This document shows positions 6,173 to 50,864 of a stretch of 64,000 nt of DNA, piece after piece; position 1 is the stretch's first letter, and the number at the start of each line of letters is the position of its first letter. The notes beneath the pieces were generated by a model. It was not told the origin of the DNA and did not search any database. It worked only from the letters and a program-made list of their open reading frames with translations. The position numbers and the translations under genes were made by a program. Source of the DNA: Prevotella sp. (lineage in GTDB: Bacteria; Bacteroidota; Bacteroidia; Bacteroidales; Bacteroidaceae); NCBI GenBank assembly GCA_017471245.1, contig JAFUVB010000005.1:25730-89729 (forward strand). Direction: 5' to 3'.

Positions 6173-6270
6173 CCGTTGACCATTGAACATTGAGTATTGA
6201 ACATTGACCATTGAACATTGAGCATTGACCATTGAGTATTGAGCATTGACCATTGAGCATTGACCGTTGG
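6152..6270 (+). repeat. Heptad array, 17 units of NYRTTGA
   Basis: Uninterrupted 7-bp units from 6152 to 6270, such as CCATTGA, GCATTGA, ACATTGA, GTATTGA and CCGTTGA. The last five bases of most units are fixed (ATTGA) and the first two vary. All units are in one orientation. The third unit (6166-6172) supplies the stop codon of the MATE gene. The array also produces spurious ORFs with a 7-residue period on the other strand. Confidence 0.9.
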
Positions 6271-8611: not shown

Positions 8612-8842
8612 TGCGTTACTTGCTGCGTTACCTGCTGCGTATTTTCATTGAACATTTATCATTGAACATTGAGCATTGCATTATCAACGACTAATGGTCA
8701 ATGGTCAATTATCAATTGTCAATGTTCAATGCTCAACGGTCAATTGTCAATGGTCAATGCTCAATGGACAACGGTCAATGGTCAATGTTCAATGATAAAT
8801 GGTCAATGAAAATACGCAGCAGGTAACGCAGCGAGTAACGCA
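8612..8842. repeat. Long inverted repeat (about 61-bp arms) with heptad units inside
   Basis: The left arm 8612-8672 and right arm 8782-8842 are complementary at about 59 of 61 positions by eye. The outer half of each arm is a unique sequence made of GCGTTACTTGCT-like 14-bp phrases; the inner half is heptad repeat (ATTGA units on the left, TCAAT units on the right). About 110 bp of further TCAATNN units fill the loop. It sits between the convergent M13 and GH43 genes and could fold as a very long hairpin in either transcript. Confidence 0.85.
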
Positions 8843-22096: not shown

Positions 22097-22440
22097 TGAC
22101 TATCAACGTGTTTATGAGAAAATAACCCGCACCCGATCCCGCACCCGATCCCACACCCGAGTCATTGACCATTGTGCATTTACCATTGACCGTTATCCAT
22201 TGAACATTGAGCATTGACCATTGAACATAAGCATTGACCATTGAACATTGAGCATTGAGCATTGTCCGTTGACCATTGAGCATTGACCGTTAACCATTGA
22301 CCATAGAGTATTGAACATTGCTTTGCTCAATGTTCAATGTTCAATGGTAAATGTTCAATGGTAAATGTTCAATGACTCAGGTGTGGGATCGGGTGTGGGA
22401 TCGGGTGCGGGTTATTTTCACATAAACACATTGATTGTCA
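22097..22440. repeat. Long inverted repeat with heptad arrays in the stem
   Basis: The outer arms 22097-22170 and about 22366-22440 match with only a few mismatches; both contain CCCGCACCCGATCCC-like 14-bp phrases and a GTGTTTATG block. Inside the left arm, roughly 22 degenerate ATTGA units run to about 22320; the right arm has about seven TCAATGN units from 22326. The centre (CATTGCTTTGCTCAATG) is itself palindromic. The organisation, unique outer arms with heptads inside, is the same as at 8612-8842, but the arm sequences differ. Confidence 0.85.
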
Positions 22441-22538: not shown

Positions 22539-22627
22539 CCAATGGTCAATGGTCAATCCTCAATATTCAATGGTCAACGTTCAATGTTCAATGGTCAATG
22601 TTCAATGTTCAATGTTCAACGGTCACC
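22539..22627 (-). repeat. Heptad array, reverse orientation
   Basis: About twelve 7-bp units of the TCAATGN type (reverse complement of NCATTGA), e.g. TCAATGG, TCAATGT, TCAACGT. It is followed after three bases by a 22-bp array. Confidence 0.85.
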
Positions 22628-22914: not shown

Positions 22915-25128
22915 TTATTTACCGCCCAAGCCGTCTGCAAAACCTGCATAGGTGTGCTTGCGGTTGTAGTTCAAATCCCAGAGACCTACAGGCTCGCCTG
23001 TACGCCAACTGCTGGAGGCAGGAGCATCGGTGATGCACCACTGGGTGATGCCATACTGCTGGTTGGCAGGAACAATCTCCACATATTTCTTGATAATCCA
23101 CTTGTAGAGATCCGACATCTCCCTATGCTGTGCCTGGGTCAAATCTTCTGTCTTCAGCGATGTGCCGCTTTCATCAACATAGCCCATGTCGAGTTCGCTC
23201 ACGCGCACCAGTTTGCCCGTGGCAGCCATCAGCTTGAACATGTTCTCAATGGCATTCTTCTTGCTCTCCTGAGTACCCTTGTTGGCATAGCAGGAAATGT
23301 GCATCTGCGTGCCGATACCGTCGATCTTGGTAACGCCGTCGGATTCCCAACGCTTGATCCACTCGATGAGGCTCTTCAGTTTGCCGTTCTTGTCCCAGTC
23401 GCTCTCCAGATTATAGTCGTTAACGAAGAGTTTGATGTCTTCCGGACCATACTGGCGAGCCAGTCTGACGGCTGTGCGCACATAGTCGAGATCGCCCATA
23501 TAATCCTGCCAGAAGAAGTTGTTGACACTGCTCTCCGTGGCATGCTGCAGTGCATAAACGCCATCACCATCGGGATTGCCGCCGGAAAGTGCCTCGTTGA
23601 CAACATCCCAAGCGTGAACATTGCCTTCGCAAGCTTCCATCATACCGCTGATCCACTTGTCCATTGCCCAGGTGAGCGTGTCCTTCTTCTCCTCGGGAGT
23701 CAGAGGAATACCGTTGCCCTGTTTCTCTATTTCAAGCACAACGTTGTCGATATAGTAGACTCCGTCGGTTGCGTTAGGCGACATGTTGAAGGCTAATGAC
23801 TGCATGATGCCGCCCCTACATGCTCCTTCATCGATAGTGATCGTCTTGTCATAGGTCTGCCAGTCAGATGAGAAGCTCACATCTGGGTATCCGCTCTGCC
23901 AGTAAATGTAATCACCGGGTCCCATGTGCGTCTGTATCGAAACTGACGTTCCTGCACATCCGCCATCGGCGCGATAGTCAAACTTCAGGTGAATCTTGTC
24001 GCCGGCGTTGATGTCTTTATTGGATGCAATCCAGAACTGGCTCTCCCAAGCATCGGCCTGAGAGCCTTTCGACTCGATGCGCGCACCGCGGCCGCCATTG
24101 ACACCTGCACCTGCGGAGATCCTGTTGATGGTGGATCCAGAGTTTTCCTTAACAAAGAAGTTGTGGGCATCGTCGCCTTCCATGTCGCCATTGTCGATCA
24201 GGCTTTCCATGTAGGTGGCAGGTCCTGCGGCATCACTGTGAGATACTGTCAAGTCTTTGAAGCAGATGCGCTGGTTTTCAACGCCTGACAATTGGAAGAC
24301 AATAAAACCGTTTGCTCCGCCTAATGGTTCATCAAACTGCACGGATGCTTCACTCCATTCGTCTGTGGTTGAAAGAGCGAGCTTCTTCTCAAAGCTCTGG
24401 TCTCCACCCCAGCCCCAACGCAGCACAACAGTGATCGATGCATCGACGGGACTCTTATAGGTAACAGACACCTTGTACTTCTTCTCGGCTTCAAGTCCCA
24501 TGTTGTCGGCTGCGAAATACTGATACCAGCCAGCGTCGCTCAAGCTGATAAGGCCTTCTTCTGGGCTGAAATCAGGAGAGTAGCCCATAGGATAGAACGG
24601 GAAAGAAGCAATCTTTGTGTAATCGATCGTATAGTCTTCTTTTTCCACCAGATCATCAGGATTGATCTCAATAGGCTTGTCTGCAAGCATGGCGTTCAGC
24701 CATTTCACAGGCTGCTGCGAGTGCCAAGCGAGCGTATGACCATATATGGAAATCCCGTTTTCGTTGGCATTCCTCACAAAAGCTTCAACCGTGCTGAAGT
24801 CCATGTCGCCCTTGTCGTTCACAATCGATGCCATCTTCATCTCGTTGCCTGCCACTATCTCATCGAAGTTCGCATTGGCAAGGCGCGTAACGACACCGTT
24901 GGCATTATAGTCGGTGGCAGCCAATGCCGCACCCAACTTGAAGTTGGATGAGATATTGGGATTGCCTGCCGAGTACTCTTTCAATGCTCCGTAATCAGCG
25001 AGATACTCCATGCCCTCGATGGAGGCTGGTTTCTCAAAATTGAATTCCAGTGGATCCATATCAGCGCAGGATGTGAAAACCGCTGCCGAAAGAAGCATTG
25101 CTCCGAAAATCTTATATGAATGTTTCAT
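22915..25128 (-). CDS. xyn10C: GH10 endoxylanase lipoprotein with carbohydrate-binding insert (Xyn10C type)
   Basis: 737 residues. Lipoprotein signal MKHSYKIFGAMLLSAAVFTSC, so probably surface-anchored. The GH10 barrel is split: the first part (about 45-155) ends near GHTLAWHSQQPVKWL, then an insert of about 320 residues holds two CBM4/22-like beta-sandwich modules, and the barrel resumes near residue 485. Acid/base Glu512 (WDVVNEAL) and nucleophile Glu645 (VRVSELDM) are present. This split layout is that of Xyn10C in the conserved xylan loci of Prevotella bryantii and Bacteroides, where it makes the first cuts in xylan at the cell surface. It is the last gene of the operon and is followed by two hairpins. 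Confidence 0.93.
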   Translation of the reverse strand: MKHSYKIFGAMLLSAAVFTSCADMDPLEFNFEKPASIEGMEYLADYGALKEYSAGNPNISSNFKLGAALAATDYNANGVVTRLANANFDEIVAGNEMKMASIVNDKGDMDFSTVEAFVRNANENGISIYGHTLAWHSQQPVKWLNAMLADKPIEINPDDLVEKEDYTIDYTKIASFPFYPMGYSPDFSPEEGLISLSDAGWYQYFAADNMGLEAEKKYKVSVTYKSPVDASITVVLRWGWGGDQSFEKKLALSTTDEWSEASVQFDEPLGGANGFIVFQLSGVENQRICFKDLTVSHSDAAGPATYMESLIDNGDMEGDDAHNFFVKENSGSTINRISAGAGVNGGRGARIESKGSQADAWESQFWIASNKDINAGDKIHLKFDYRADGGCAGTSVSIQTHMGPGDYIYWQSGYPDVSFSSDWQTYDKTITIDEGACRGGIMQSLAFNMSPNATDGVYYIDNVVLEIEKQGNGIPLTPEEKKDTLTWAMDKWISGMMEACEGNVHAWDVVNEALSGGNPDGDGVYALQHATESSVNNFFWQDYMGDLDYVRTAVRLARQYGPEDIKLFVNDYNLESDWDKNGKLKSLIEWIKRWESDGVTKIDGIGTQMHISCYANKGTQESKKNAIENMFKLMAATGKLVRVSELDMGYVDESGTSLKTEDLTQAQHREMSDLYKWIIKKYVEIVPANQQYGITQWCITDAPASSSWRTGEPVGLWDLNYNRKHTYAGFADGLGGK

Positions 25129-25161: not shown

Positions 25162-26193
25162 TTATTCAGCCAACTTGAACCACTCTGCCTTCACACCGCG
25201 GTCGCGAACAACCAGTGTGTCCTTAGTGGCGCAGTTGATGCCTCCATAGTTGAGCGTATAATCCAGATAGAGAACATCATGATCTTCATTGCCCCAGCTG
25301 TTCTTGTCGCCCTTGGTTACAAACTGACCGCTACCGGTAGCCGTAACGCCGGGGGAGGTAGTTGAGACAGAGCACTTGCCTTCAGCATCGAAGTTGAGTT
25401 TCAGGTTGCACTCGATAATCACTCCATCCTTATCCTTCGTGGGGCGAGCCCACTCTACTGAGTTGATGCCTAATGTGGTGAACTGGTTCTGGAGCACCTC
25501 GTCTTTTTCCACATATTCAGCATGGCGAACCTCTGTGCCTGTCTTGGCACCGCTGTAGGTGTCTTTACCACGGCGCAGATAGTTAGACTGATACTTGCTG
25601 ATATACTTCACGGCATAAAGGGTGTAGTCTTTCGGCAATACAGACCAGTCGGAAGCCTTCGCACGGTTCGGGCTGCTCACTCCGTCTTGTGGCTGACCGC
25701 AAAGAATGCTGTCAGCACCCTCAACATGTGTCATCACAACAGGAATCACGTAGTTCAGCTTTGTCGACATCGGGTCTGCAAAGAATGCATCTGTCAGCTG
25801 AACGGTGACACCACCTAACACTTTACCATTTGCGATAACAATCTGGTTGCCGCTCAAGGTGTAGTAGTTGGATGGCATGGCAACAACGGGTGTTCCATCC
25901 TCATACTTAATGCCGTTGCAGAGCGAATTGTCAACCTTGATGTCAATCACCACGTTCCGGTTGTTTTCATAAACACCACTTATTGTAGCCATAATCTGGA
26001 ACTTGTGGTCGTTGTCCATCGAGTTGTCTGTTGTAGCATCCTCGCCTAAGGTGATGGTACGTATAGGACTCTGATAGGCAAAGTAAACTGCCGAATGGTC
26101 GTTGTCGGGAAAATCCCAGTCTCCGTTTTCGCATGCCGTCAGCAAGAATGCTGCCAGCAGCAAATTGGCTATATACAATATTGTCTTATTCAT
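25162..26193 (-). CDS. xusE: DUF1735-type surface lipoprotein in the XusE position
   Basis: 343 residues from the ATG at 26193, the start that gives a lipoprotein signal (MNKTILYIANLLLAAFLLTAC). The N-terminal half contains the DUF1735/BT_3987-like pattern (VVIDIKVDNSLCNG then YYTLSGNQIVIANGKV). The C-terminal half is a beta-rich domain of unknown role. In xylan loci this position is held by XusE, thought to be a surface xylan-binding protein. Distance to xusD is 26 bases and to xyn10C 33 bases, so it belongs to the same transcript. Confidence 0.8.
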   Translation of the reverse strand: MNKTILYIANLLLAAFLLTACENGDWDFPDNDHSAVYFAYQSPIRTITLGEDATTDNSMDNDHKFQIMATISGVYENNRNVVIDIKVDNSLCNGIKYEDGTPVVAMPSNYYTLSGNQIVIANGKVLGGVTVQLTDAFFADPMSTKLNYVIPVVMTHVEGADSILCGQPQDGVSSPNRAKASDWSVLPKDYTLYAVKYISKYQSNYLRRGKDTYSGAKTGTEVRHAEYVEKDEVLQNQFTTLGINSVEWARPTKDKDGVIIECNLKLNFDAEGKCSVSTTSPGVTATGSGQFVTKGDKNSWGNEDHDVLYLDYTLNYGGINCATKDTLVVRDRGVKAEWFKLAE

Positions 26194-26219
26194 AGCTTTT
26201 AGTATTTTACATTGTTTCT

Positions 26220-28037
26220 TTACCATCCTTTATTTTGGATTAACGCATCAAACTTCAATATCTCAGAATAAGGAATCGGTCCGTAAATCATATAGTCTGA
26301 ATACTTGCGATCCTCCACATTGAACACTTCATAGTGATTGTTGGTGATGCGCATACCCTTTACAGTCTCGTTGAGTTTGGATACGCCCACATTCCAACGG
26401 CGGAGATCCCAGAAACGGAATCCTTCGAAGCAGAGTTCGATGCGGCGCTCGTTGCGGATCAGTTCGCGCATCATGTTCTTGTCGGCCTTGCATGTTTCAA
26501 GATAAGAATCCATAGCATTGATGCCGGCACGCTGGCGGATGGCCTTGATCACGTCGTAGGCAGAGAATCCGTTGGAACCAGCACCTGTCGGTCCCCAAGC
26601 TTCGTTGGCTGCTTCGGCATAGCTCAGGAAGAACTCCGTGTAACGCATCCATGGTCTGATGTGGAATTGTCCTGCCTTATTGCTCGGATTGCAGTTCACA
26701 TCCTCAACCAATAGTTTTTTCAGATAGTAGCCGGTACGTGTGGAGCGTCCGTCATCACGACCAAGAGCATCGTCGTTGCTACCGTCGACAGCAGTGTTGA
26801 TGGTCTGACCCTTGAACGTTGTACCATTGTGAATGATATAGAGGTCAAGGCGCGGGTCGCGGTTGGCGTATGGATTCTGCGGATCATAGCCGCTGTTCGG
26901 GTCGGTGATGGGCAGACCGTTTGCCATTGGGAAGGCGTCCACCAGGTTTTGTGACGGATTCACACGTCCATTGCCAAATAATGAGGGAGGGAAGTTCAGT
27001 GTTTCAATCCAAGAAGATGAATTGTCCGGGTCTTCTCCACCCTTGTTGGAGCGCCACAATATCTCAGGACGGTTGAAGCCTGGTGCTAACGAATTCAATG
27101 CAGCATACTCATTGTACCACTGATTGCCGGTAGGATCGATATTGCTCAATGGGTTACTGCCGAGACCTTCCTTCAGCACTGTTGCCAACAAGTTGGCTGC
27201 CTGATCCCATGTAACACCTGAACCGTCGCTGTAAGCGGGACTTGCTGCCATGAGAGCGGCCTGGGCGCGCACGGCCTTTGCCACGCGAGCACTCATGCGG
27301 TTCTTTGCATGGTCACCAAACACACGCGTGAAGATTTCAGATGTGGCTCCCAACTGGCGATACTTTGAAGGAACATCGTTGCTGTTGTCGATGTTACCAT
27401 AGTCTTCAGGGAGATACTTGATAGCCTCTTCCACGTCCGCATTCAGCTGGTCAATACACTCTTTGAAGGTGTTGCGTGGATTGTTGAATTCGGATGTCAC
27501 GGTTTCAGACTCTGTCAAGATGGGAATACCCATCAGCTGACCGTCGGCTGTCTTTCCGGCATGAGCTCTTAACAGATGGTACATGTAGAGTGCGCGCATG
27601 CCGTATGCCTCACCCATGAAACGCTGTTTGTAGAGTTCAGCGGCAGTTGGATCGCTTGCCCATGTAACCTTCGGAGCAAGTTCAATCATCTGGTTGATAT
27701 ACTGCCATGAAGCACGCAGATATTGCCAGGTGTCCATCGGGTTGTTGTCGGCACGCCATTGTCCTGAAGCCATTCTGCGGTAGGTGTTGTCCACGTCATT
27801 GGATACAGCATCGTCGGTGGCAACCTCTGTCATTGTCCAGCCTACAGCATCCTGCCCCAGGGGATTGCTGATATAGGCATGGCCCAGCAGTCCTACTGCC
27901 CATTGCGGCATATCCTCTAACTGTTCCATCGTCTTATGGTTCTCAACAGCAGGTTCAAACGCATCGTCGCAACCAACCAGAGCAGCTGTCAGTGGGGCTA
28001 TAATTGTTAGTATTGCTACTTTTCTAAAATTTTTCAT
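26220..28037 (-). CDS. xusD: SusD/RagB family surface glycan-binding lipoprotein (XusD)
   Basis: 605 residues with a lipoprotein signal ending in ALVGC. SusD features: helical TPR-like core with YMYHLLRAHAGK, KAIRQRAGIN, and the C-terminal LIRNERRIELCFEGFRFWDLRRW block. It partners the TonB-dependent transporter encoded directly upstream (26 bases away) and holds xylo-oligosaccharides over the channel. Complete, no lesions seen. Confidence 0.93.
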   Translation of the reverse strand: MKNFRKVAILTIIAPLTAALVGCDDAFEPAVENHKTMEQLEDMPQWAVGLLGHAYISNPLGQDAVGWTMTEVATDDAVSNDVDNTYRRMASGQWRADNNPMDTWQYLRASWQYINQMIELAPKVTWASDPTAAELYKQRFMGEAYGMRALYMYHLLRAHAGKTADGQLMGIPILTESETVTSEFNNPRNTFKECIDQLNADVEEAIKYLPEDYGNIDNSNDVPSKYRQLGATSEIFTRVFGDHAKNRMSARVAKAVRAQAALMAASPAYSDGSGVTWDQAANLLATVLKEGLGSNPLSNIDPTGNQWYNEYAALNSLAPGFNRPEILWRSNKGGEDPDNSSSWIETLNFPPSLFGNGRVNPSQNLVDAFPMANGLPITDPNSGYDPQNPYANRDPRLDLYIIHNGTTFKGQTINTAVDGSNDDALGRDDGRSTRTGYYLKKLLVEDVNCNPSNKAGQFHIRPWMRYTEFFLSYAEAANEAWGPTGAGSNGFSAYDVIKAIRQRAGINAMDSYLETCKADKNMMRELIRNERRIELCFEGFRFWDLRRWNVGVSKLNETVKGMRITNNHYEVFNVEDRKYSDYMIYGPIPYSEILKFDALIQNKGW

Positions 28038-28063: not shown

Positions 28064-30871
28064 TTAGAATGAAGCCTTCAAACCAATGCTATAGTAGCGG
28101 CTTTGAGGAGCACTGCCTACATTCATCTCAAGTACCTTACGCTCCTTGGCGATGGTAAGCAGGTTGCTGCCACTAATATATACATCCAGTCCTTTCACAA
28201 ACTTCACAAAGGAATTGGCAAACACTGTTTCCGGGAAGTTGTATGTCAGCTGCACCTTTCTGAGTGTGAAACGGTCGTTCTTATACATCCAGAAGTCGGT
28301 GTAGCGGTAGTTGTTGTCACCGTTACTCGTTGTCAGGCGCGGATAGATGGCTGTTGCGGCTGTCTCAGGAGTCCAAGTGTCGCGAGCTGCTTCTGAATAT
28401 TTGCTTGTGCCTGGCATCCAGTAGTAAGAGCTGTTCTTCATGCCATGTCCTCCGAGATAGAGATTACCCAACGTGAAGAAGGTGATGTTCTTCCATTTGA
28501 GGGTAAGGTTGATGCCGCTCATGAAAGGAGAGTCCCAACGTCCGAGGAATACCTGGTCGTTATTGTCAATCTTGCCGTCATTGTTCTGGTCAACATAGCG
28601 AATGTCGCCCGGGCGCACATCACCGAAGGTCTGTGTGGGTGCATTGTCAATCTCTTGCTGCGACTGGAACAGGCCCACGCTCTGCAATCCCCAGTATCCG
28701 TTCAGCGCTTTGCCGATGCGCGACTGGTATGCAAACTCATAGTTCTCGTCGCGTTTGCCTACTGTGCTCTTATACCACATTCCGCTGATGCCCAACTTTG
28801 CAAAGAACTCGCCGAAGTGCTTTTGGAAGTAAACGCTGAAGTCGATACCCGTGCGATTGTCAACATTATAGTTGGTGTAAGGGATGATGGATGAAGAGGG
28901 GTATCCCACCTGAGTGAAGTAGTTAGGATAGAGAGTTGCCACACGGGCAAGTCCGCCGTCCATCTTGTTGGTGAAGAAGTTCACGTCGAAAGTAATCAGC
29001 TTGTCGAACATGGAACCACGCAAACCAACCGTGAACTCCTTGCGCTTAACAAAGGTCATGTCGGGGTTGTCGCCACGCTGGAATTCAGTAGCTGCCATAC
29101 CTCCGTTGTCAGCCCAGCTATACCATCCGCCTGACTGCACTACTGACTGATACAGGTAGTAGCCGTCCTCATTGTCATCGGTAGTGATGTCAATATCCTG
29201 ATCAATGATGGCAACCGATGTGGTCAGCATGAGGTCATCCAAGAACGAATCCTTCAGAACATCCCTTGTGGGACGCCATCCCAAAGTCACAGCTGGAGAG
29301 AATCCGGTGCGGTTGCCCTCTGGCATTTTTGTGGAATAAGGAATGGCAGCACTGAAGTCAACGTAGTATGTATGGTCGTAGTTGTAAGACAACTGTAAGC
29401 CCATGTTCACATTGGTCGTGCGATGATAGTGGCCATTGCGCTGTGTCTGCCAGATGTTGCCCAACAGCATGCCAAACACATTGTGCTTCTCAGCGAAGGT
29501 GCGGTTGTAGTCGAACTGTCCTGAGATGTTGTAGGTGTAACGGTATGCAGAGTTGCTGATGTTCTCATTTCCCGACTTGTAGTCTTTTCCATACTGGGTG
29601 ATATCCCGAATCATGTCATTTCCGGCATAGTTGGTCCATGTAGGAGCAAAGGTGGCATAGTCGTTAGAGTAGCCCTGATTATAGGTAGAAGCATAGTCGA
29701 TACCGTATTTCGTGCGGAAGATCAGTCCCTTCACCAATGAGTTCAGGTTCACATCAAACTGTGTGTTGAACTGGAACTGGCGACTGACATACTTGCTGTC
29801 GCCTGCTGCGAAGGCATCAGCATAGGGGGTTGTCGGGTTTGCCTGAGAACCTCCGAAGAAGAAGTCGCCCTGCAGGTAGTCGCTGTTGCGCACAATGTCT
29901 AATGATGTGGCATCAGCCTCTTCGATATAGCTGATAGGAATCAGTGGAGCCACTAAATACGGGCGCCATGTTGCAGACTGTCCCCACCAGTCGGTGTTTG
30001 CGCTGTAGGAGTCGTAGAAGGTAACGTTGGCATCTGCCTTGAAAGAAAGAACCTTGTTGAGTTCCACGTCGATGTTACCACGGACAAAGAAACGGCTGAC
30101 ATAGTTGTCTTTCGTCTTGCCCACCTTCAGAGGAGAAGCCTCGCGGTAATAGCCTGTTGTCGTGTAATACTTCATGCGGTTTGTTCCGCCGGTAACCTCC
30201 ATGATTCCCTCATAGCGTGCATGTGAGTTCTTCACATAGTCGGAAGACAGCATGTTGAAATCAGGATAGCGATAAGGATTGATGCCCGAAGCATAGTTAT
30301 AGATATCCTCGGCAGAATAGTTTGCCGACAATCCGTCGTTTGCACGAGCCTGATTGAACATGCTCATATACTCGGCTGATCCCAGATACTTAGGAAACAC
30401 TTTGGGAACATAAAGCCCGCCATTGGCATGTGCGTTGATGCGCAGGTCGCCCAGCTTGCCACGCTTGGTGGTAATCTGGAGCACTCCCTTGGCAGCGCGA
30501 GGTCCATAGAGCACAACAGCTGATGCTCCTTTCAACAGTGTGATTTGGTCGATTTCGGTAGGAAGCACGTTGTTGGCATCGCGCACCATACCGTCTACAA
30601 CGACTAAATAGTCATCATTTCCCCAGATGTTGCCGTTGAAGCCGCCCACCACATTGTCAATATAGTCTAAACTGTAACTGCTGTAGGCTTTGTCTTGCAG
30701 CTCCTTCATGTCGATAACGGAGATTCCGCCCAACAAGTCTTGCTTGTCAACAGCGCGGAACGCCACGTTCACTGCCGTTGAGTCGCCAGCCTCCTGTGCG
30801 AGGAGAGGAAGAGAGGAGCCTGCCAACAGCAAACACCCAACGACCAACACCTTATTTATTATTTTGTTCAT
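28064..30871 (-). CDS. xusC: SusC/RagA family TonB-dependent transporter (XusC), short N-terminus
   Basis: 935 residues from the ATG at 30871 (MNKIINKVLVVGCLLLAGSSLPLLAQ signal peptide); a TTG at 30883 is not needed. The plug domain (GISVIDMKELQDKAY, DYLVVVDGMVRD, ITLLKGASAVVLYGPRAAKGVLQITTKRG) and the C-terminal barrel ending in ARYYSIGLKASF-like residues (SRYYSIGLKASF) are present. Unlike typical SusC proteins it lacks the carboxypeptidase-D-like domain and a recognisable EVVVVG TonB-box segment; only about 20 residues separate the signal peptide from the plug. It imports oligosaccharides with XusD. How it contacts TonB is unclear. Confidence 0.92.
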   Translation of the reverse strand: MNKIINKVLVVGCLLLAGSSLPLLAQEAGDSTAVNVAFRAVDKQDLLGGISVIDMKELQDKAYSSYSLDYIDNVVGGFNGNIWGNDDYLVVVDGMVRDANNVLPTEIDQITLLKGASAVVLYGPRAAKGVLQITTKRGKLGDLRINAHANGGLYVPKVFPKYLGSAEYMSMFNQARANDGLSANYSAEDIYNYASGINPYRYPDFNMLSSDYVKNSHARYEGIMEVTGGTNRMKYYTTTGYYREASPLKVGKTKDNYVSRFFVRGNIDVELNKVLSFKADANVTFYDSYSANTDWWGQSATWRPYLVAPLIPISYIEEADATSLDIVRNSDYLQGDFFFGGSQANPTTPYADAFAAGDSKYVSRQFQFNTQFDVNLNSLVKGLIFRTKYGIDYASTYNQGYSNDYATFAPTWTNYAGNDMIRDITQYGKDYKSGNENISNSAYRYTYNISGQFDYNRTFAEKHNVFGMLLGNIWQTQRNGHYHRTTNVNMGLQLSYNYDHTYYVDFSAAIPYSTKMPEGNRTGFSPAVTLGWRPTRDVLKDSFLDDLMLTTSVAIIDQDIDITTDDNEDGYYLYQSVVQSGGWYSWADNGGMAATEFQRGDNPDMTFVKRKEFTVGLRGSMFDKLITFDVNFFTNKMDGGLARVATLYPNYFTQVGYPSSSIIPYTNYNVDNRTGIDFSVYFQKHFGEFFAKLGISGMWYKSTVGKRDENYEFAYQSRIGKALNGYWGLQSVGLFQSQQEIDNAPTQTFGDVRPGDIRYVDQNNDGKIDNNDQVFLGRWDSPFMSGINLTLKWKNITFFTLGNLYLGGHGMKNSSYYWMPGTSKYSEAARDTWTPETAATAIYPRLTTSNGDNNYRYTDFWMYKNDRFTLRKVQLTYNFPETVFANSFVKFVKGLDVYISGSNLLTIAKERKVLEMNVGSAPQSRYYSIGLKASF

Positions 30872-30879
30872 AATAATTA

Positions 30880-30913
30880 TCAATTTTCAATTATCAATTT
30901 CAATTATCAATTC
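30880..30913 (-). repeat. Short heptad array TCAATTN inside the xus operon
   Basis: Five near-7-bp units (TCAATTT, TCAATTA, TCAATTT, CAATTA, TCAATTC) fill most of the gap between xusB and xusC. They look like a variant of the heptad family found elsewhere in the window. Confidence 0.6.
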
Positions 30914-32857
30914 TTACCACCCAGGATTCTGCTTGAACTCAGGATAGATCATCACATCCTCATTCTTGAAGGGGAGCCAGTAATGTTTTGCACTGAGATT
31001 GCGCTGGATGATCACTTCCTCCCTGAAGTTCTTGACAGCATTCTCCTTAGGATCCACGGTGATGTCAAGTCCTGGATGATAGCTGTCAGTTTCCGGATCA
31101 ATGTTTGCACCGGGAACACGGTCAAACTTCTGTCTCGTCTTAATGTTGTATGGATATACAGTCAACAGTTTCCAACGGCGGAGGTCATTGAAGCGGTGAG
31201 CCTCGAAAGAAAGCTCAACAGCACGCTCACGACGGATCTCGTCCATAAATTTGTCAGCTGAACCAAGGAAGCGGTCATCAACAGGATCAACGCCTGCACG
31301 CTCACGAATCTTATTCACTGCATCTGCCGCTGTAAGAGAGCAGGTGGAGGATTTGCCGTTGGCACCGCCGTAACCCATGTCGGCAGCCTCTGCATACATC
31401 AGATAAACATCTGCAAGGCGCAACCAGGAGAGGTGCAGGTGGAATGCATTTGTCCATCCGCTATGACCATTGTCAATTGTATTGCAGTCAATGGCAATGA
31501 ACTTATAGTTCAGGTATCCCGTCCTACTTCTATGGAGGTCTTGTATGCCATTGCCTCCATCATAGAAATTGGCATATTGGAATTGATATAAAGACTTGTC
31601 AACAGGCTGTCCGTTGAACATCTTCACGCCATCATAGATGAAATTATAATAGAAACGCGGGTCGCGATTCTTCCACGGGTGCTCCTTGTCGAAACCTGAG
31701 TCGGCCTCAGTGAGGGGAAGACCGTTCTGCATTCCGAAGTAGTTCACATAGTTGGCAGCGGGGCATAACACAATACCGTCGCCATCGGCAATCTCCTTAA
31801 TCTGATACACATTTGCCTGTCGCCAGTATGAGTCGGCACCGAAGGAAGGACTACGCATGATGGCCTCTGTTCCGCCAGGCATCATCCAGCTCTGTTTCTG
31901 AGTCCAGAACAGGGTGTGGTAGTCTTCAAATGGCACCAGCGCATATTGTGTCTGACCGCTCTCAACCAAGCTCAGCACCTGTCCGAATGCATCGGCAGCA
32001 CGTTTACAATAGTTGGAATCATACTTATATGTGTCGCCTGTTGCGTCAACACCGTTCACCATCAGCGGACTGCCGGCATAGAGCAGTGCCTTGCCCATGT
32101 ACGACAATGCCCAGATTTTGTTGGGGCGCAATTCGTTCTTACCTTTGCCAATCTGTGAGCCTGTGGCGGTATTGTCCCAGTTGATGGGCAACAGATCGGC
32201 AGCGCGCTTGAAATCTTCAGCCATCTTGTCGGCACATTCCTGGAATGACTCGCGAGGCAGATTGAATTGAGCACCCGGATCCAGAGGTTCCGTGATATAA
32301 GGCAGACCACCCCAATAGGTGCAAAGCTCGAAATAGAACCAGGCACGAAAGAATAGCAACTGACCTTCAATAAGATTGCGCTGTTCCTGAGAAGCGTCTT
32401 TCAACAGACCGTCTTGCAGGGCCTTCAAGCCAATATTTGCCTGACGGATGCCATACCAGCTGCCGCCCCAGAGAGCTTTGTCGAAACGTGCACCTGAACT
32501 TCCCTGAATTTGTCCGACAGCCCAAGGACGATCCAAAAAGCATGCCGAATTGTTGATATAGCCTCTATAGTTTCCGTTGTCAACCATAGCGGTGAATATG
32601 CTGTTTGCCCAACCACTGTCAAAAGTATGGACTTCATCCTCACCCCAGTTGAAACAACTTGTCCAGTGGCTCTTCATTACGTCAGGGATAACATTGTACA
32701 TGACTTCTACAAATCCCTGGAAATTATTGAAATTCTTGAACGCATCCTCTTCCTGGAGCACAGATTCAGCATCCTTTTCCAAATAGTCGGTACAGGAGGA
32801 GAGGCTCACCGTTCCGGCAAGAAATGCGAACATTATATATATTAATGACTTTTTCAT
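30914..32857 (-). CDS. xusB: SusD/RagB family surface glycan-binding lipoprotein (XusB)
   Basis: 647 residues; lipoprotein signal MKKSLIYIMFAFLAGTVSL then SSC. SusD hallmarks include GQLLFFRAWFYFELCTYWGGLPYI, VYLMYAEAADMG, KIRERAGVDP and ERAVELSFEAHRFNDLRRWKL. It starts 17 bases after the xusA reading frame ends and is intact, so its partner transporter would be XusA, which is interrupted here. Confidence 0.93.
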   Translation of the reverse strand: MKKSLIYIMFAFLAGTVSLSSCTDYLEKDAESVLQEEDAFKNFNNFQGFVEVMYNVIPDVMKSHWTSCFNWGEDEVHTFDSGWANSIFTAMVDNGNYRGYINNSACFLDRPWAVGQIQGSSGARFDKALWGGSWYGIRQANIGLKALQDGLLKDASQEQRNLIEGQLLFFRAWFYFELCTYWGGLPYITEPLDPGAQFNLPRESFQECADKMAEDFKRAADLLPINWDNTATGSQIGKGKNELRPNKIWALSYMGKALLYAGSPLMVNGVDATGDTYKYDSNYCKRAADAFGQVLSLVESGQTQYALVPFEDYHTLFWTQKQSWMMPGGTEAIMRSPSFGADSYWRQANVYQIKEIADGDGIVLCPAANYVNYFGMQNGLPLTEADSGFDKEHPWKNRDPRFYYNFIYDGVKMFNGQPVDKSLYQFQYANFYDGGNGIQDLHRSRTGYLNYKFIAIDCNTIDNGHSGWTNAFHLHLSWLRLADVYLMYAEAADMGYGGANGKSSTCSLTAADAVNKIRERAGVDPVDDRFLGSADKFMDEIRRERAVELSFEAHRFNDLRRWKLLTVYPYNIKTRQKFDRVPGANIDPETDSYHPGLDITVDPKENAVKNFREEVIIQRNLSAKHYWLPFKNEDVMIYPEFKQNPGW

Positions 32858-32874: not shown

Positions 32875-35800
32875 TTAAAGTGTAACTCTAAGACCAATGT
32901 TGAAACGGCGCTGTGTAGGATATGCACTCCATCCGCCTGTATTCGACTCACGGTCATCAGGCATGTCAGTCCAGAGGGCAAGGTTGTTGCCGTTGACAAA
33001 CAGCTTCAACGACTGTAGACCAACGTTGCTCAACCATCTCTCTTTGGAGAAGGTGTAGGAAATCTCAGCATACTTCAGACGGAGATATGAACCATCGAAC
33101 ATGAAACGTGTGCCATTCGAATAGGTGCTTGCCTTGGCATTCGTGCTCCAGCGAGGAAGCGGAACGTCGGCATTCTGATTCTCCGGACTCCAGTAGCTGC
33201 CTTCGTGGTAGCCTGAAGTGCGGCTGTCGTTCAAACTCACGAGATTTACATCACGCGAAACGTTGTTGGTGCCGTAGAACTGTACGAAAGCGCTCCATCC
33301 CTTATAATCCACGCCAATCTGGAAATTCATGGTGTTCTGTGGAATACTTGAGAATCCATAGGGTATATAGTCGTTCTGCGAGATTACACCATCGGCATCG
33401 TAGTCAAGAATGATATAGTTTCCCGGCATTCGGTTGCTGTCATACTCATCGTGGGCGGTACTTCCATAAAGCTCATCCCAGTTGTTGTAATAGCCATGAT
33501 CCAGATAAACATACGTTTGGTTTATCGTCTTGCCTGCCTTCTTCTGATATTCAGGAGTCAGCTGCGGGTCATCGCGTTCAACAATGGTATTCACGGCATG
33601 GGTGAATGCCATGTTACCCCAGAGCCGCCAGTCATTGTTCAACTTCTTGTTGAAACGGATGTCAAGCTCGTAACCGGAGCTCTTCACCTTACCCAAGTTG
33701 GCAACAGGTGCGTTTCCGCCATAGTAACCCGGAACGGCGCGGTCGCTGCCGGCAATCAGAATGTCGGTACGATTCTCACGGAAATAGTCGAATGAACCTG
33801 TGATCAGACCGCCCAAGAAACCGAAGTCAACAGCAAGGTCGAGCTTTTTGGCTACTTCCCAATGCAAGTCGGGGTTACCTTCCTGAGTCTTCTGCCACCA
33901 TGTGTAAGGGCTTGAACCGAAATTCGGGCTGCCTCCAGAAATCTCCTGCGCAATGTTTCCGCTGTTCTCCCACGTGTCGCGGAACAGCCAACGACCTTGG
34001 CTTACATGGTCGTCACCAATCTCACCATAGGAGGCGCGCAGTTTCAGCACGTCGATGATGTGCTTATCGCGAAGGCGCTTCATGAAAGCTTCCTCGCTGA
34101 CCATCCAACCGATAGCTCCAGAATTGAAGAATGCGAAACGGTTGTCCTTTGAGAAGATTTCTGAACCGTTGTAGGCACCGTTGTACTCTAACAGATACTT
34201 GCGGGCGAAGTCGTAAGTGGCACGGAACACCCAGTTCTCACGCAGATAGGGTGAGAAACTCCCCGTCTGGTAGCGCTCGCGGCTGAAGTTACCCATTACA
34301 CCCACGGTGTGGTCACCGAATGTGCGGCTGTAGTTCAGCTGCATAGAGTAGTTCAGACGACGGTAGGTGAGCAGGTTGTTTACACTACCAGGTCCCTGAG
34401 ACCATGCATTGTTGTTCTTATAATCGAACTTATAGTTGGTTTCAGGCTGCACGTCCGACTTGCCAATGCCCGTGTCGGGATCAATCCAGTAGTGAGCCTC
34501 GTCTTCCCAGTCGTTAGTATCGTCGATACCACGGCCTTGCTCCACGAATGAATTATCGAAGGCGAGCTTTGCCATGGCCTTCAGTCCTGGGGTGATGAAG
34601 CCGAGATCCTGTTCGAGAGTGAAGTCGGTGTTCAGGCGGTCGGTAGTGGTATAGCCGATACCTGTTGTGCTCAGATACTCCATAGAGTTCTGTGAAGCCT
34701 GAGTTGGATTGGGATCATAGTATCCCCACATGCCGTTATCATACAAAGGACGGAAGGCTCCGGGAGCAATGCCATAGAATGCCGACCATACGAGATTCTC
34801 ATATTGAGCCTGCGTGGCCTTGCGGATGGCATGTGAACCGGAGAGGTTGATATGCAGCTGTGTGGTTTTTGTGAGGTTGAAGTCAAGGTTGCTGCGAACA
34901 TTAATGCGGTCGTAGGCGAATCCCGGCTCATAACCGCGAGTGTTAGGTACCTTCTTATAAATGTCACCCTCGTGAGCATAGTCAACGCTTGTGAAATATT
35001 TCACGAACTTGGAACCGCCGGATACGTTCACGTTGAAGTTGTAAGACATGGCAACATCCTTGAGCAACTCGTCAATCCAGTTTACATTCGGATAACGTTC
35101 CCATTCCTCGCGGGTTGCAGGATTGCGATACTTGTTGAGAATATCCTGCGGAGTGAATTTCACCCAATCATCGGGAGCGTATGCCAATTCTTTCTGAATG
35201 GCTTTGTTGCGAAGAACCAAAGCATCGTAGGAGTCCATTGCATCGGGCAGCTTTGAATAGGTCTTCAAAGTGGTGCTGGCATTGATGTTGATCGTGGCTG
35301 GACCTTCTGTTCCGTGCTTTGTGGTGATAAGAATAACGCCATTCGCTCCGCGCACACCGAACACGGCTGTAGCGGAGGCATCTTTCAATACGGAAATACT
35401 TGCCACGGAGTTGATGTCAACACTCGACATGGGACGCTCGATACCATCAACCAGTACCAAAGGTTCACCACCATTCCATGAAGTAGTACCGCGAATGTAG
35501 ATCTTCGGATCCTCGTCACCAGGCTGACCGGAGGTACTCATGGTTACCACACCAGGCAGGTTTCCGGTAAGAGCCTGACCGAGACTGGTCACACCACCGG
35601 TACGTTCCAACACTTTAGAGTCGGTCTGGGTGATGGCACCCACCACAGAGGCTTTCTTCTGCTGACCGAAACCAACCACCACCACTTAAGAGAGTTGGGT
35701 GTTGTCAGTCAGCACCACACTGAAGGTGCGCTGCGAGCCCACCTTAAATTCCTTGGTTTCCATTCCCACGTAGCTGACAACTATAACTGTCTGCTCAGAG

Positions 35801-36021
35801 GGAACATCAAGCTGGAATTTGCCGTCAAAGTCTGTTACCGTTCCATGAGCGGTATTTCCCTTAACAACAACCGATGCTCCGATGAGAGGCTCACCGGCAC
35901 CGTCGACGACTGTACCGTTCACTCGGATGCTTCCGCCCTGCGCCAGCGCGTTTGCCAGCGGCAACATTAGCATCAGGAGAGAAGGAACAGCGCGTTTCAA
36001 GAGACTTTTTAGCTGTTTCAT
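32875..36021 (-). pseudogene. xusA: SusC family TonB-dependent transporter (XusA), interrupted by an in-frame TAA
   Basis: The whole reading frame is 1049 codons from the ATG at 36021 (MKQLKSLLKRAVPSLLMLMLPLANALAQ signal peptide). A carboxypeptidase-D-like domain (VNGTVVDGAGEPLIGASVVVKG) is followed by TQLS, then TAA at 35686-35688, then VVVVGFGQQKKASVVGAI in the same frame. Family members read ELDEVVVVG or LSEVVVVG here, so the stop replaces one Glu (GAA to TAA, a single base). Downstream the plug (YIRGTTSWNG, LVLVDGIERPM) and barrel to the terminal RFNIGLRVTL are intact. A GTG at 35685 could restart translation but gives no signal peptide. In an intact form it would be the main xylo-oligosaccharide importer, first gene of the xus operon. 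Confidence 0.88.
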
Positions 36022-36121
36022 CTTGTCTGATTTTGATTCATAATTATTTATATTGGTTTTATACATTATAATATTATATATATGGTGCGACTTTACATCG
36101 TCATACTGTTTTCTTTTCCAA

Positions 36122-36160
36122 GGCTGGCACAAATCTCCTTCACAGGGACACGTGCCAGCC
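36122..36160 (-). promoter_or_regulatory. Hairpin in the long 5' leader of the xus operon
   Basis: The stem GGCTGGCAC/GTGCCAGCC (36122-36130 with 36152-36160) has a 21-base loop. It lies between the promoter box at 36282 and the xusA ATG at 36021, in a leader of about 255 bases. No T-run follows, so it is not a simple terminator. Confidence 0.5.
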
Positions 36161-36281
36161 GTTGTTTCCATGATAATTAAATCACTGGCTTATAAAAAAA
36201 GCTACTAATCACTAACTACAAATACTAACTACTAACAATATAATTAACATTAAAAAAACTGCTCAGGTTTGATTTTCGTTG

Positions 36282-36289
36282 CAAAGGTA
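36282..36289 (-). promoter_or_regulatory. -7 promoter box TACCTTTG of the xus operon
   Basis: A perfect TAnnTTTG box on the minus strand. It lies about 260 bases before the xusA ATG, far more than the usual 20 bases in this window, so the operon mRNA has a long leader. The adjacent 36290-36440 region is where an HTCS would be expected to bind; I saw no clear operator there. Confidence 0.65.
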
Positions 36290-36484
36290 GGCAAATTCTG
36301 GTGTTCTCGTTTTGCAAAAAGTAGCGCGTATGTTTAATAAAGTAACATGATGTGAATTTTAATCAAAACATGAAAAGCCTTGTTATGCGGGAAACGCGCC
36401 GCCCGCCAAGCTAAAAACATGGGATGTTGTTACGAAAACTTTGTCAAATGTAACATGCGCATTGCCGGTTTGCGGGAAAATGTG

Positions 36485-36492
36485 TATATTTG
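36485..36492 (+). promoter_or_regulatory. -7 promoter box TATATTTG of the HTCS gene
   Basis: A TAnnTTTG match on the plus strand with TTG at 36462-36464 (20-base spacing). It predicts transcription from about 36499 and supports the ATG at 36528. Confidence 0.65.
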
Positions 36493-36527
36493 CAACGATA
36501 ATGATACAAATCGATAAAACACGAACA

Positions 36528-39500
36528 ATGTTACGTAAAGTTCTATTAACGGCATTTGAACTTATTTTTGCAGTGTGTTTCACACATGCACAAACCGGAA
36601 AGCTGTTTGATGCAGACAAACAGTTGTCGAGCAGTTTCACCAGTCAGGTGTATCTTGACCGGGATGGTTTCATCTGGGTTGCTACGCGAAATGGGCTCAA
36701 CCGATATGATGGCTATCAGTTTCAGTCAATAAAAAGAGAGAGAGCATGAGTCGGGCATGGCGAGCAATTATGTGAATTGCATGATACAAGATGGCAGCGG
36801 ACTTTTCTATCTTGGCATGTATGGCGCGCTTCAGACTTACGACGGCAACAGTTTCCGCGACGTGGAAGTGCGCGACCTGAGCGGAAACGTGGTTCCCTGC
36901 TATGTCACTTGTTTCCTCCAACTCAGAAACGGCGACATGCTTGCAGGCACTTCTGGTCACGGACTGCTGAAGATTACCGACCGGAGCCATGCCGTTCAGC
37001 AAAACGGTGCCTTGCGCAAAATCCTTACCGTTCAGGATATGGTAGAAGACCGGCGAGGACATGTGTGGATTGCAACCAACAGCTACGGTCTGCTCGATTA
37101 TGACGGAAAAACAGCAACGAGATATTTTGCCGACGACAAGCAAGTGGGCATTTTGCGCCAGATTTGTCTCGATCAGGACGGAAACATGTATGTGGGTACA
37201 TCTGGAAACGGTGTTTACGTGCGCAGTGCCAAAGGCGGAGAGTTCCGCCATCTCGATGCGGCAGGCAGCAAGCATGTTTCTTCACTCTATTGTTGCCGCG
37301 ACGGGCGGCTGATGATCGGCTACGACGGGAAAGGCGTGGCTATCTATAACCCGAAAACCGGGCAGATAAGCGACAACCCGTTCTTCAGTCGCGACGTGGA
37401 TCTCAGCATGAGCAAGGTTTACAGCATGGTGGAGGATGCCAGCGGCAATATCTGGTTGGGACTCTTGCAGAAAGGAATCTACATGCAGCCTAAGCAGGTT
37501 ACGGGATTCCGCTACTTGGGTTACAAGCTCGGAGGGCGCAATGTGATAGGTCAGGCGTGCGTTATCAGTACGCTGATTGATAGCCGTGGCCGCTGCTGGG
37601 TAGGCACCGACAAGGACGGTCTCTACTGTCTCGACGAGCAGCAGCGCCCAATACACCATTTCAAAGAAGGATTCCCCGCATCGGTGATGAGCATTGCCGA
37701 GGACGGTTCGGGCAGGATTTGGGTAGGCAGCTGGAACGAGGGATTCGGTTATATCGACTCTGAGGCGAAGAGCTATCATCAGTATCCCCACTACACATCT
37801 TCCAGCGGCTTTGCCATTCAAGCCTCAGGAAGCACGTTGTGGGTAGCCACGATGGGGCAGGGGCTGATTGAAATCAACCAGGAAACCGGTCATCTGAAGG
37901 CCTATACCATGGATTCCAGGGCTGCCACCGACAGGAAAGTGAACAGCATTGCCAACGACTATATCTCGAAAATGTCGCTATCGCCCGATGGCAAACGAGT
38001 GTATCTCGCCACCACAATGGGCGTTTGCTGCCTCGACGTGGAGAAAAACAGCTGGACAAGTGTGTTCGGGGAGAACTGCCTGAACTACGGAACGCCGGCG
38101 CGAATTGTGAAAGAGTATAACGGCAAACTGTGGATTGGCACTAACGACGGGCTCTACTGCTACGACATGAAGCTGAAACAGCTGAACCTTTACACCACGG
38201 AAAAGGGACTGGCTGACAATGGTATCGCTTCGATTGAGCAAGACAAGGAGGGCCGATTGTGGATTGGCACCGACCACGGTCTGTGTTGCCATGACCCGAA
38301 AACAGGGCTCACGCAGAGCTATTTCGTGGACAGCGGTCTGCAGTCGAATGAGTTTTCCGACGGAGCTTCATGGAGCCATCAGCGCGGCGTGATGCTTTTC
38401 GGCGGCGTGGGTGGCATCACCTGGTTCCGCCCGGAGAATATCCATCAGAGCCAGTGGGATGCCAAAGTGAGACTGGTCAACTTCATCGTGAACCGCCATT
38501 TGGTGAGCAGCACATCGAAATCGGGCAGGTATCATATATGCGACACCACCGTGATTGCCGCCAACCGCTTTGAACTGGCATCCCACGACAACACGTTTGC
38601 CATTCAGTTTTCCACTCTCACCTACGATGCGCCCGAGCATATCACCTATTGGTATAGCATCAACGGCGACTCGTTCACCCGCCTGCAGCCGGGCATGAAC
38701 GAGATAACGTTCACCCATCTCTCGCCAGGCACCTATCATTTCCGCGTTAAGGCGCAGCGTGACAACCAGTTCTCCGCCGAAAAAGAGTTCACCGTGGTGG
38801 TGCATTCGCCGTGGTACCGCTCCACATGGGCATATCTTGCCTATCTGCTCGCCATTGCGTTTGCCGTTTGGAGGTATCTGGTGGAGCGGCGCAGGAAGGA
38901 GCAAAACCGCCTTCGCCTGCAGGAACACATCCACGCCGAGGAGATGGGCGAGGCCAAATTGCGCTTCTTTATGAACATCAGTCATGAGATTCGCACGCCT
39001 ATGACGCTGATAATGACACCCTTGCTCTCATTGATGAAGAACGAGACCGACCCCACCAAGAAGAACGTTTATGAGACTATCAAGCGCAATGCGGAACGAA
39101 TCCTGAACCTGATCAACCAGATGATGGATCTCAGAAAGATAGACAAGGGACAGATGCAGATGCGTATGGCAGAGACTGACCTGATAGCCTTCGTGCGCGA
39201 AATCCACGATCTGTTTGAGCATCAGGCCAAGACGAAGCAGATAGAGATGGCGTTTGAGCCTGATGCCGACACGCTTCCCGTGTGGATCGACCGCCGCAAT
39301 TTCGACAAGGTGATTATGAACATCCTCTCGAATGCCTTCAAGTTTACGCCCGCAGGCGGGAAAATCGACATACGGATCCGCCACGATGCCGACCATGCCA
39401 GCATCTCCATCAGCGACAACGGGGAGAAAATACCCGAAGACAAGATTGGCAAGATATTCGAAAGGTTCTATCAGACATCATCGAAGGTGAACGACCGCAA

Positions 39501-40515
39501 CGTGGGAACGGGCATCGGACTCGACCTGACCCGCTCGTTGGTGGAGTTGCACCACGGCACCATTGAGGCGCATAATCTGGAACAAGGCTGCGAGTTCGTG
39601 GTTACCATACCGATGGGCAACGCTCATCTGAGCGAGGTGGAGATGCTTGCCGATGCCGAAACGGAAGAATCGGCATTGCATTCTGCCGACGAGAACCTGT
39701 TTAACGAAGAAGAGATTGCCCCTGCCCCCATACTGCCAAGTGGCAAAAAGCCGGTTTTGGTGATTGCTGAAGACGATGACGAAATCCGAAACTATCTCGA
39801 CAGCGAGCTAAGTCAGGACTATGAGGTGAAGGCATGCACCAATGGGCGTGAGGCATTTACGGAAATAATCCGCTCGATGCCCGCACTGGTGCTCAGCGAC
39901 GTGATGATGCCCGAGATGGACGGCAACAAGCTATGCGCGAAAATCAAATCGAACCCCGGCACAAACCACATCCCCGTGATACTGCTTACTGCCAAAAACC
40001 GAGACGAGGACAAACTGGAAGGATTAGAGACAGGTGCTGATGCCTATGTGGTGAAGCCATTTAACATGGATATTTTGCGCCGCACCATACTTAATTTATT
40101 GAACTCTCACAGGTTGCTGCAACTGAAATATGCGCGCAACGACAATCTGGAAGAGCAGGTGGACAAGGTAAAAGTGGTTTCGCCAGACGAGCGGTTGCTC
40201 AAGCGGGTGATGGAGGTAATCAACAAACATCTTGACGATTCCGACCTCAGTGTAGACATGATTGCCGACCAGGTTGGCATCAGCCGCGTTCACCTGCATC
40301 GCAAAATGAAAGAGCTGACCGGGCAGACTCCCCACGACTTTATCCGTAACCTGCGACTGAAACAGGCTGCCAACCTGCTTGCAAACCGGGGAATGAATGT
40401 CACGGAGGTGATGTATGCCTGCGGCTTCTCCAGTTCTGCGTCTTTCTCCACGGTGTTCAAGAAGTTCTATGGCATGTCGCCGCGCGACTACATGAAAGAA
40501 CATCAGGAGCGATAA
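36528..40515 (+). pseudogene. Hybrid two-component system regulator (HTCS) of the xylan locus, frameshifted near its N-terminus
   Basis: The gene is read in two frames. The first (36528-36749) has a signal peptide (MLRKVLLTAFELIFAVCFTHAQ) and the first propeller strand (VYLDRDGFIWVATRNGLNRYDGYQF), then stops at 36747. The rest continues in the +1 frame from about 36742 (EHESGMASNYV) to 40515. Removing one base from the A-run, or adding one AG to the (AG)5 tract at 36735-36744, restores about 1329 codons, the usual HTCS length. The domains are two Reg_prop propellers, Y_Y_Y, a membrane segment (about 38830-38880), HisKA with NISHEIRTP, HATPase (NILSNAFKFTP), receiver (VLSDVMMPEMDG) and an AraC-type HTH. 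It should sense xylo-oligosaccharides and activate the divergent xus operon, like XynR-type regulators. Confidence 0.88.
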
Positions 40516-40530
40516 CTATGGCAGGTTATT

Positions 40531-40662
40531 CAAAACCTATGCTTTCGGCCTTTAATATCTATGTTTTTGACCCTCAAAACCTATGCTTTTGACCCTCAAA
40601 ACCTATGTTTTTGGGCTTCAAAACCTATGCTTTTACACATCAAAACCTATGCTTTTGAAAAA
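40531..40662 (+). repeat. 22-bp periodic array, 6 units
   Basis: Units start at 40531, 40553, 40575, 40597, 40619 and 40641. The core CAAAACCTATGCTTTTG is an imperfect palindrome (CAAAA/TTTTG), followed by five variable bases such as ACCCT or GGCTT. It begins 16 bases after the HTCS stop. Confidence 0.85.
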
Positions 40663-40673
40663 GGGCGCTATAC

Positions 40674-40771
40674 TCAACGGTCAATGCTCAATGTTCAATG
40701 TTCAATGGCAAACGGTCAATGTTCAATGCTCAATGTTCAATGTTCAATGGCCAACGGTCAATGGTCAATGA
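40674..40771 (-). repeat. Heptad array, reverse orientation, 14 units
   Basis: Fourteen uninterrupted 7-bp units (TCAATGT, TCAATGC, TCAATGG, TCAACGG, CAAACGG) lie directly after the 22-bp array and before a terminator. Confidence 0.88.
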
Positions 40772-50732: not shown

Positions 50733-50864
50733 AAATTAATATAATTTGCCGAGCAAATTAATTTAATTTGTTTTGCAAATCAATTTGATTTACTATGCAA
50801 ATTAATTTAATTTACTTTTCAATTCAAATTGATTTACCGAGCAAATCAAATTGATTTACGTCTC
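50733..50864 (+). repeat. AT-rich 22-bp periodic array, 6 units
   Basis: Six units of exactly 22 bp from 50733: AAATTAATATAATTTGCCGAGC, then AAATTAATTTAATTT or AAATCAATTTGATTT cores with tails GTTTTGC, ACTATGC, ACTTTTC, ACCGAGC. The cores are palindromic. Same period and layout (palindrome plus variable tail) as the arrays at 8391, 22631 and 40531, but a different core. It lies between the sugar permease gene end and the sigma promoter. Apart from this array, the hairpin and the promoter, the 445-bp gap 50576-51020 shows no gene. Confidence 0.8.

Follow-up and report, generated by a model that had tools for sequence, protein, structure and literature searches.

A frameshifted HTCS regulator beside an interrupted xusA in a Prevotella xylan locus: a probable recent double loss of function

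Results

Genes of the xylan locus

The window, by which we mean the whole 64,000-nt stretch of DNA that was analysed, carries an HTCS regulator gene on the plus strand and, divergent from it on the minus strand, xusA (broken), xusB, xusC, xusD, an xusE-like gene and a GH10 xylanase gene, past which lie GH43, esterase and further GH10 genes. The tandem susC/susD pairs, the extra surface protein and the GH10 xylanase stand in the order of a xus operon, and what the locus lacks is an unbroken first TonB-dependent receptor (TAA at 35686-35688). The features discussed below are as follows.

22915..25128, minus strand: GH10 xylanase at the operon end; open frame
25162..26226, minus strand: xusE-like surface protein (BT_3987-like_N, DUF5627); open frame
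26220..28037, minus strand: xusD (second SusD-type); open frame
28064..30883, minus strand: xusC (second SusC-type); open frame, with a signal-type N-terminus at an internal Met
30914..32857, minus strand: xusB (SusD-type); open frame
32875..35685, minus strand: xusA 3' piece (plug and barrel); 936 codons open
35686..35688, minus strand: in-frame TAA in xusA; Glu at that codon in relatives
35689..36021, minus strand: xusA 5' piece (SusC-type receptor); signal-type N-terminus and CarboxypepD_reg domain, 111 codons
36282..36289, minus strand: candidate TAnnTTTG promoter-like -7 box upstream of xusA; one of two on this strand
36485..36492, plus strand: candidate TAnnTTTG promoter-like -7 box upstream of the HTCS ATG
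36528..36749, plus strand: HTCS 5' piece; signal-type N-terminus and first propeller strand, 73 codons, ending in TGA
36731..36744, plus strand: A5 run and (AG)5 tract, the site of the frame break; both frames open at 36733-36746
36757..40515, plus strand: HTCS 3' piece; 1252 codons from an internal ATG

TAnnTTTG was assumed to be the -7 promoter consensus, and three candidate boxes were found within 36100-36530, two of them on the minus strand. The gene at 25162..26226 is called xusE-like after xusE, a name used, like xyn10, within the xylan utilisation system. Judging from its position and its homologues, the HTCS most likely controls the xus operon.

The codon replaced by TAA in xusA is Glu in all 14 matching loci from other genomes, among 28 compared; because two of these (L061 and L157) are identical, the count of distinct sequences is 13 of 13. 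The remaining genes of the operon are open and begin with signal-type or lipoprotein-type N-termini. A loss of xusC as well, suggested by an ORF listed with a TTG start, was rejected, because a signal-type N-terminus is encoded from an internal Met onward. No close second copy of xusA that might serve as a back-up was seen in the genome, where the next SusC-type match is 29% identical.

An HTCS gene in two frames

The reading of open frames showed that the HTCS gene is split at 36730-36749 into a frame of 73 codons and one of 1252 codons. The first runs from ATG 36528 to the TGA at 36747-36749, and the second is free of stops from after the TAA at 36730-36732 to 40515. The two are stop-free together only at 36733-36746, nearly all of which is occupied by the tract (A5 at 36731-36735, (AG)5 at 36735-36744), and the break is thereby pinned to A5(AG)5 without the help of relatives.

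The 5' piece has a hydrophobic N-terminus and a single Pfam match, to Reg_prop, at 20.4 bits, exactly the cut-off. In the 3' piece the order is propellers, Y_Y_Y, hydrophobic segment, HisKA, HATPase, receiver and AraC-type HTH; Reg_prop, HisKA, HATPase_c, Response_reg and HTH_18 scored above the cut-off and Y_Y_Y just under it (25.7 versus 26.6 bits), and the PDB chains 4a2l (which we take to be BT4663) and 12aw match parts of it. These matches identify the split gene as an HTCS regulator, with propeller sensor, HisKA, HATPase, receiver and AraC-type HTH all present across two pieces and no single ORF of the window reaching from the signal peptide to the HTH. The original prediction had placed a frame break of an HTCS regulator inside an A/AG tract, with the signal peptide and first propeller strand in a separate frame from the rest, next to a broken xusA; read directly, the sequence at 36728-36760 is as it had been described, and these points agree with our analysis of the frames, the domains and the TAA on the minus strand.

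The junction in related genes

Searches for the HTCS DNA region covered two sets of 299 and 398 genomes of the genus and one of 298 relatives (the sets overlap and include the own genome); the HTCS protein was searched for in genome contigs, where the best 80 of 590 relatives were considered. Junction counts rest on the best matches that were fetched as loci (for example, 30 loci from 116 matching genomes among the 299), compared at an identity of the HTCS second piece of at least 44%. A second strain of the species was not found in the 299-, 398- and 298-genome searches, nor among the best 80 of 590 in the contig protein search. Among the genomes searched, the best non-self HTCS match by score was G247, at 72-73% DNA identity, and the best non-self match of xusA was G034, at 76%.

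All 42 distinct related junctions among the best matches fetched are in one frame. None of these 42 has five or more AG units: four units occur in one, two in 27 and one in 14, so that among the related junctions compared the AG tract is private to this genome. Around the junction the anchors were 17 codons apart in 33 of 36 loci, while of the other three loci two had a spacing of 16 codons and one of 15 (a few loci duplicate sequences), indicating that the region tolerates a small change of length and yet keeps its frame.

The same comparison bears on the idea that both pieces are used and yield a functional or a cytoplasmic regulator, whether through ribosomal frameshifting, polymerase slippage on the A run or a restart at ATG 36757. 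This ATG is in the downstream frame, seven bases past the TGA of the 5' piece, and A runs of at least five near the junction are not rare, being present in 17 of the 42 relatives. Those relatives, however, are already in one frame and need no shift, and a product of the restart would be without signal peptide. Moreover, Met 36757 is part of a G(M/L)ASNYVN-like motif present in most intact relatives, which argues against an adaptation for restart. We consider a use of both pieces extremely improbable.

As a separate observation, xusA (32875-36021) and the HTCS gene (36528-40515) have different nearest relatives. The former is 84% identical to xusA of genome G034; the HTCS match of that genome, found on the same contig at a distance of about 25 kb, ranks far lower than the top match. 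On these alignments, the difference suggests a mosaic locus.

Frequency of the AG tract

(AG)5 occurs once in the window against 0.11 expected, and 10 of 100 shuffles reach one, so as a tract in the window it is only mildly unusual. When the whole genome was counted, 10 distinct tracts of at least five AG units (14 overlapping hits) were found against roughly 6.4 expected, a value obtained by scaling the shuffle expectation of the window to 3.73 Mb. In the genome, (AG)5 is thus about as frequent as composition predicts. Six of the nine other tracts are within stop-free frames of 155-581 codons, which are not proved genes, and two are at frame edges. The only longer tract of the genome is an (AG)9 on contig 26, inside frames of 105-107 codons; it lies at 1501-1518 of our locus L161 (C26), and less than 300 bases downstream of it an ATG begins a frame that stays open to the end of the stretch examined.

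These counts weigh on the proposal that slipped-strand changes of A5(AG)5 length in some cells toggle the HTCS and with it xylan use, which the original prediction had raised as an ON/OFF switch. A dinucleotide tract is indeed where the frame breaks, at codons 68-73 of the regulator between signal peptide and sensor, and this tract is the sole (AG)5 of the window. The rest of the HTCS is conserved, and a single lesion is also what would be expected of a switch caught in the OFF state. In one Neisseria survey, the lowest dinucleotide cut-off is five units (PMC5084427), which the tract just reaches, placing it at the edge of what is screened. For repeats, one review regards as decisive a repeat number that the composition of the genome does not predict (PMC11868660), and A5(AG)5 hardly fits this criterion: the tract is neither longer nor more frequent than composition predicts in the genome-wide count, nor is it kept in the related genes, where the closest of the 42 junctions reaches four units. 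Furthermore, slippage in the tract would leave the xusA stop in place and could not reverse it. Apart from where the break lies, little speaks positively for phase variation, and we regard it as improbable; the proposed switch is not supported by our data. A special form of it, in which A5(AG)5 is a young, lineage-specific slippage switch of the xylan HTCS and the stop in xusA arose secondarily in a lineage that was OFF, appears very doubtful. If true, a switching tract would give gut Bacteroidota a new means of hedging their use of fibre. Among the matches listed by full-text literature searches, as far as their text was accessible, no repeat-controlled HTCS or other polysaccharide-use regulator of Bacteroidota was found.

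The window contains other repeats. A 7-base unit (TCAATGG and variants) forms mostly intergenic arrays at 6150-6269, 8641-8808, 22163-22374, 22540-22619 and 40674-40770; a three-unit pattern of this repeat gave 61 and 41 overlapping hits in the genome and 0 for the reversed control, and some of the hits occupy facing strands within a few hundred bases of each other. A 22-base repeat of about six copies (40530-40658) directly follows the HTCS stop codon, and an AT-rich 22/44-base repeat (50733-50859) lies upstream of an ECF sigma factor and FecR gene beside a SusCD pair.

Age of the lesions and background damage

Conservation of the two remainders was determined by leave-one-out counts over the columns invariant among the other sequences. 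The HTCS second piece deviates at 10 of 378 such columns (2.6%), compared with 0.8-11.3% in nine intact orthologues, and the xusA second piece at 9 of 381 (2.4%), compared with 1.6-5.8% in six others. As the two remainders retain their conserved sites to a normal degree, the damage looks recent in these alignments, and, the comparison being one between species, it is dated only roughly. An ancient pseudogene was rejected on the same grounds, together with the presence of one lesion per gene.

Stops inside SusC-type match segments were found in 0 of 92 in the genome, a count that misses stops outside the segments, such as that of xusA. The four next-best HTCS frames measure 1298-1411 codons. 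Among the 28 matches of the search that gave these frames, one, an AraC-type HTH on contig 71, contains a TAA, and three weaker HTCS-like frames have 815, 928 and 1053 codons, so some background gene damage is possible. A genome full of broken genes is not supported, considering the SusC-type count, the length of the next-best HTCS frames and the six AG tracts in stop-free frames.

Discussion

A real and recent loss of function of both the HTCS and xusA is, in our judgement, the probable explanation and the best reading of this locus. Two lesions of different kinds lie in adjacent, functionally linked genes; the related sequences have 42 of 42 junctions in one frame and 13 of 13 Glu codons; and the genome gives little sign of widespread damage. 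The behaviour of a mutant of Bacteroides xylanisolvens favours it as well: for an insertion in its xylan HTCS it is reported that operon expression was lowered, that growth on oat-spelt xylan (insoluble) was abolished and that growth on arabinoxylan was strongly reduced (PMC4855328). The xylan PUL of Segatella copri, with tandem susCD, is described as syntenic with that of Prevotella bryantii and as induced by xylans, while its HTCS is constitutively expressed (PMC11784079).

According to this reading, the HTCS would have been frameshifted by a change of length in a chance A5(AG)5 stretch, and xusA, the first gene of the divergent operon, ended by a nonsense mutation. The 73-residue HTCS product would be inert, and a product restarted at ATG 36757 would have no signal peptide, so that its sensor could not reach the periplasm; with the one inert and the other misplaced, the xus operon would stay uninduced by xylo-oligosaccharides. 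Even if xus were expressed, XusA would be missing, by analogy with other xylan loci. Once one of the genes was lost, selection on the other would presumably have been relaxed. The strain should thus fail to induce xus. By gene content, annotation would rate the nearly complete xylan locus as functional, and as the broken switch and first transporter are hidden from such annotation, the diet predicted for this strain would be wrong.

The main rival is an error of assembly or consensus: the organism would have intact genes, and sequencing, polishing or mixed strains would have introduced one or both lesions. Repeats are a usual site of erroneous indels. The genome is a draft of 114 contigs with 94% completeness, and each gene has a single lesion in otherwise ordinary conservation. 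Against this, the xusA lesion is a stop in place of Glu and not a repeat indel, and it would take a coincidence for two adjoining genes of the same locus to carry errors of different kinds. The absence of internal stops from the SusC-type match segments also speaks against error, as do the six other AG tracts lying in stop-free frames, even though these frames are not proved genes. We consider an error unlikely. The original prediction had named decay or error as the simpler alternative to a switch, and our results uphold this view, with recent loss favoured over error.

Comparison with known systems

The simple-sequence-repeat contingency loci of Neisseria, Haemophilus and Campylobacter, as described in two articles (PMC11868660, PMC5084427), resemble the HTCS gene in having a frame break in a short repeat near the 5' end, whereas the repeat here is at about the level of composition and absent from the related genes compared. 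The HTCS proteins of Bacteroidota PULs (PDB 4a2l; xylan HTCS BXY_29350 of Bacteroides xylanisolvens) have similar domains, and BXY_29350 adjoins a tandem susCD xylan operon as the gene of the window does (PMC4855328). The difference is that the HTCS gene of the window is in two frames, while all 42 related junctions fetched are single-frame. The literature on xusABCD of Prevotella bryantii and the syntenic Segatella copri PUL (PMC8002723, PMC11784079) describes two SusC/SusD-type pairs, a further surface protein, a GH10 xylanase and an HTCS next door, all of which are common to the window's locus. Unlike in those systems, xusA is stopped and the HTCS is frameshifted in the locus described here.
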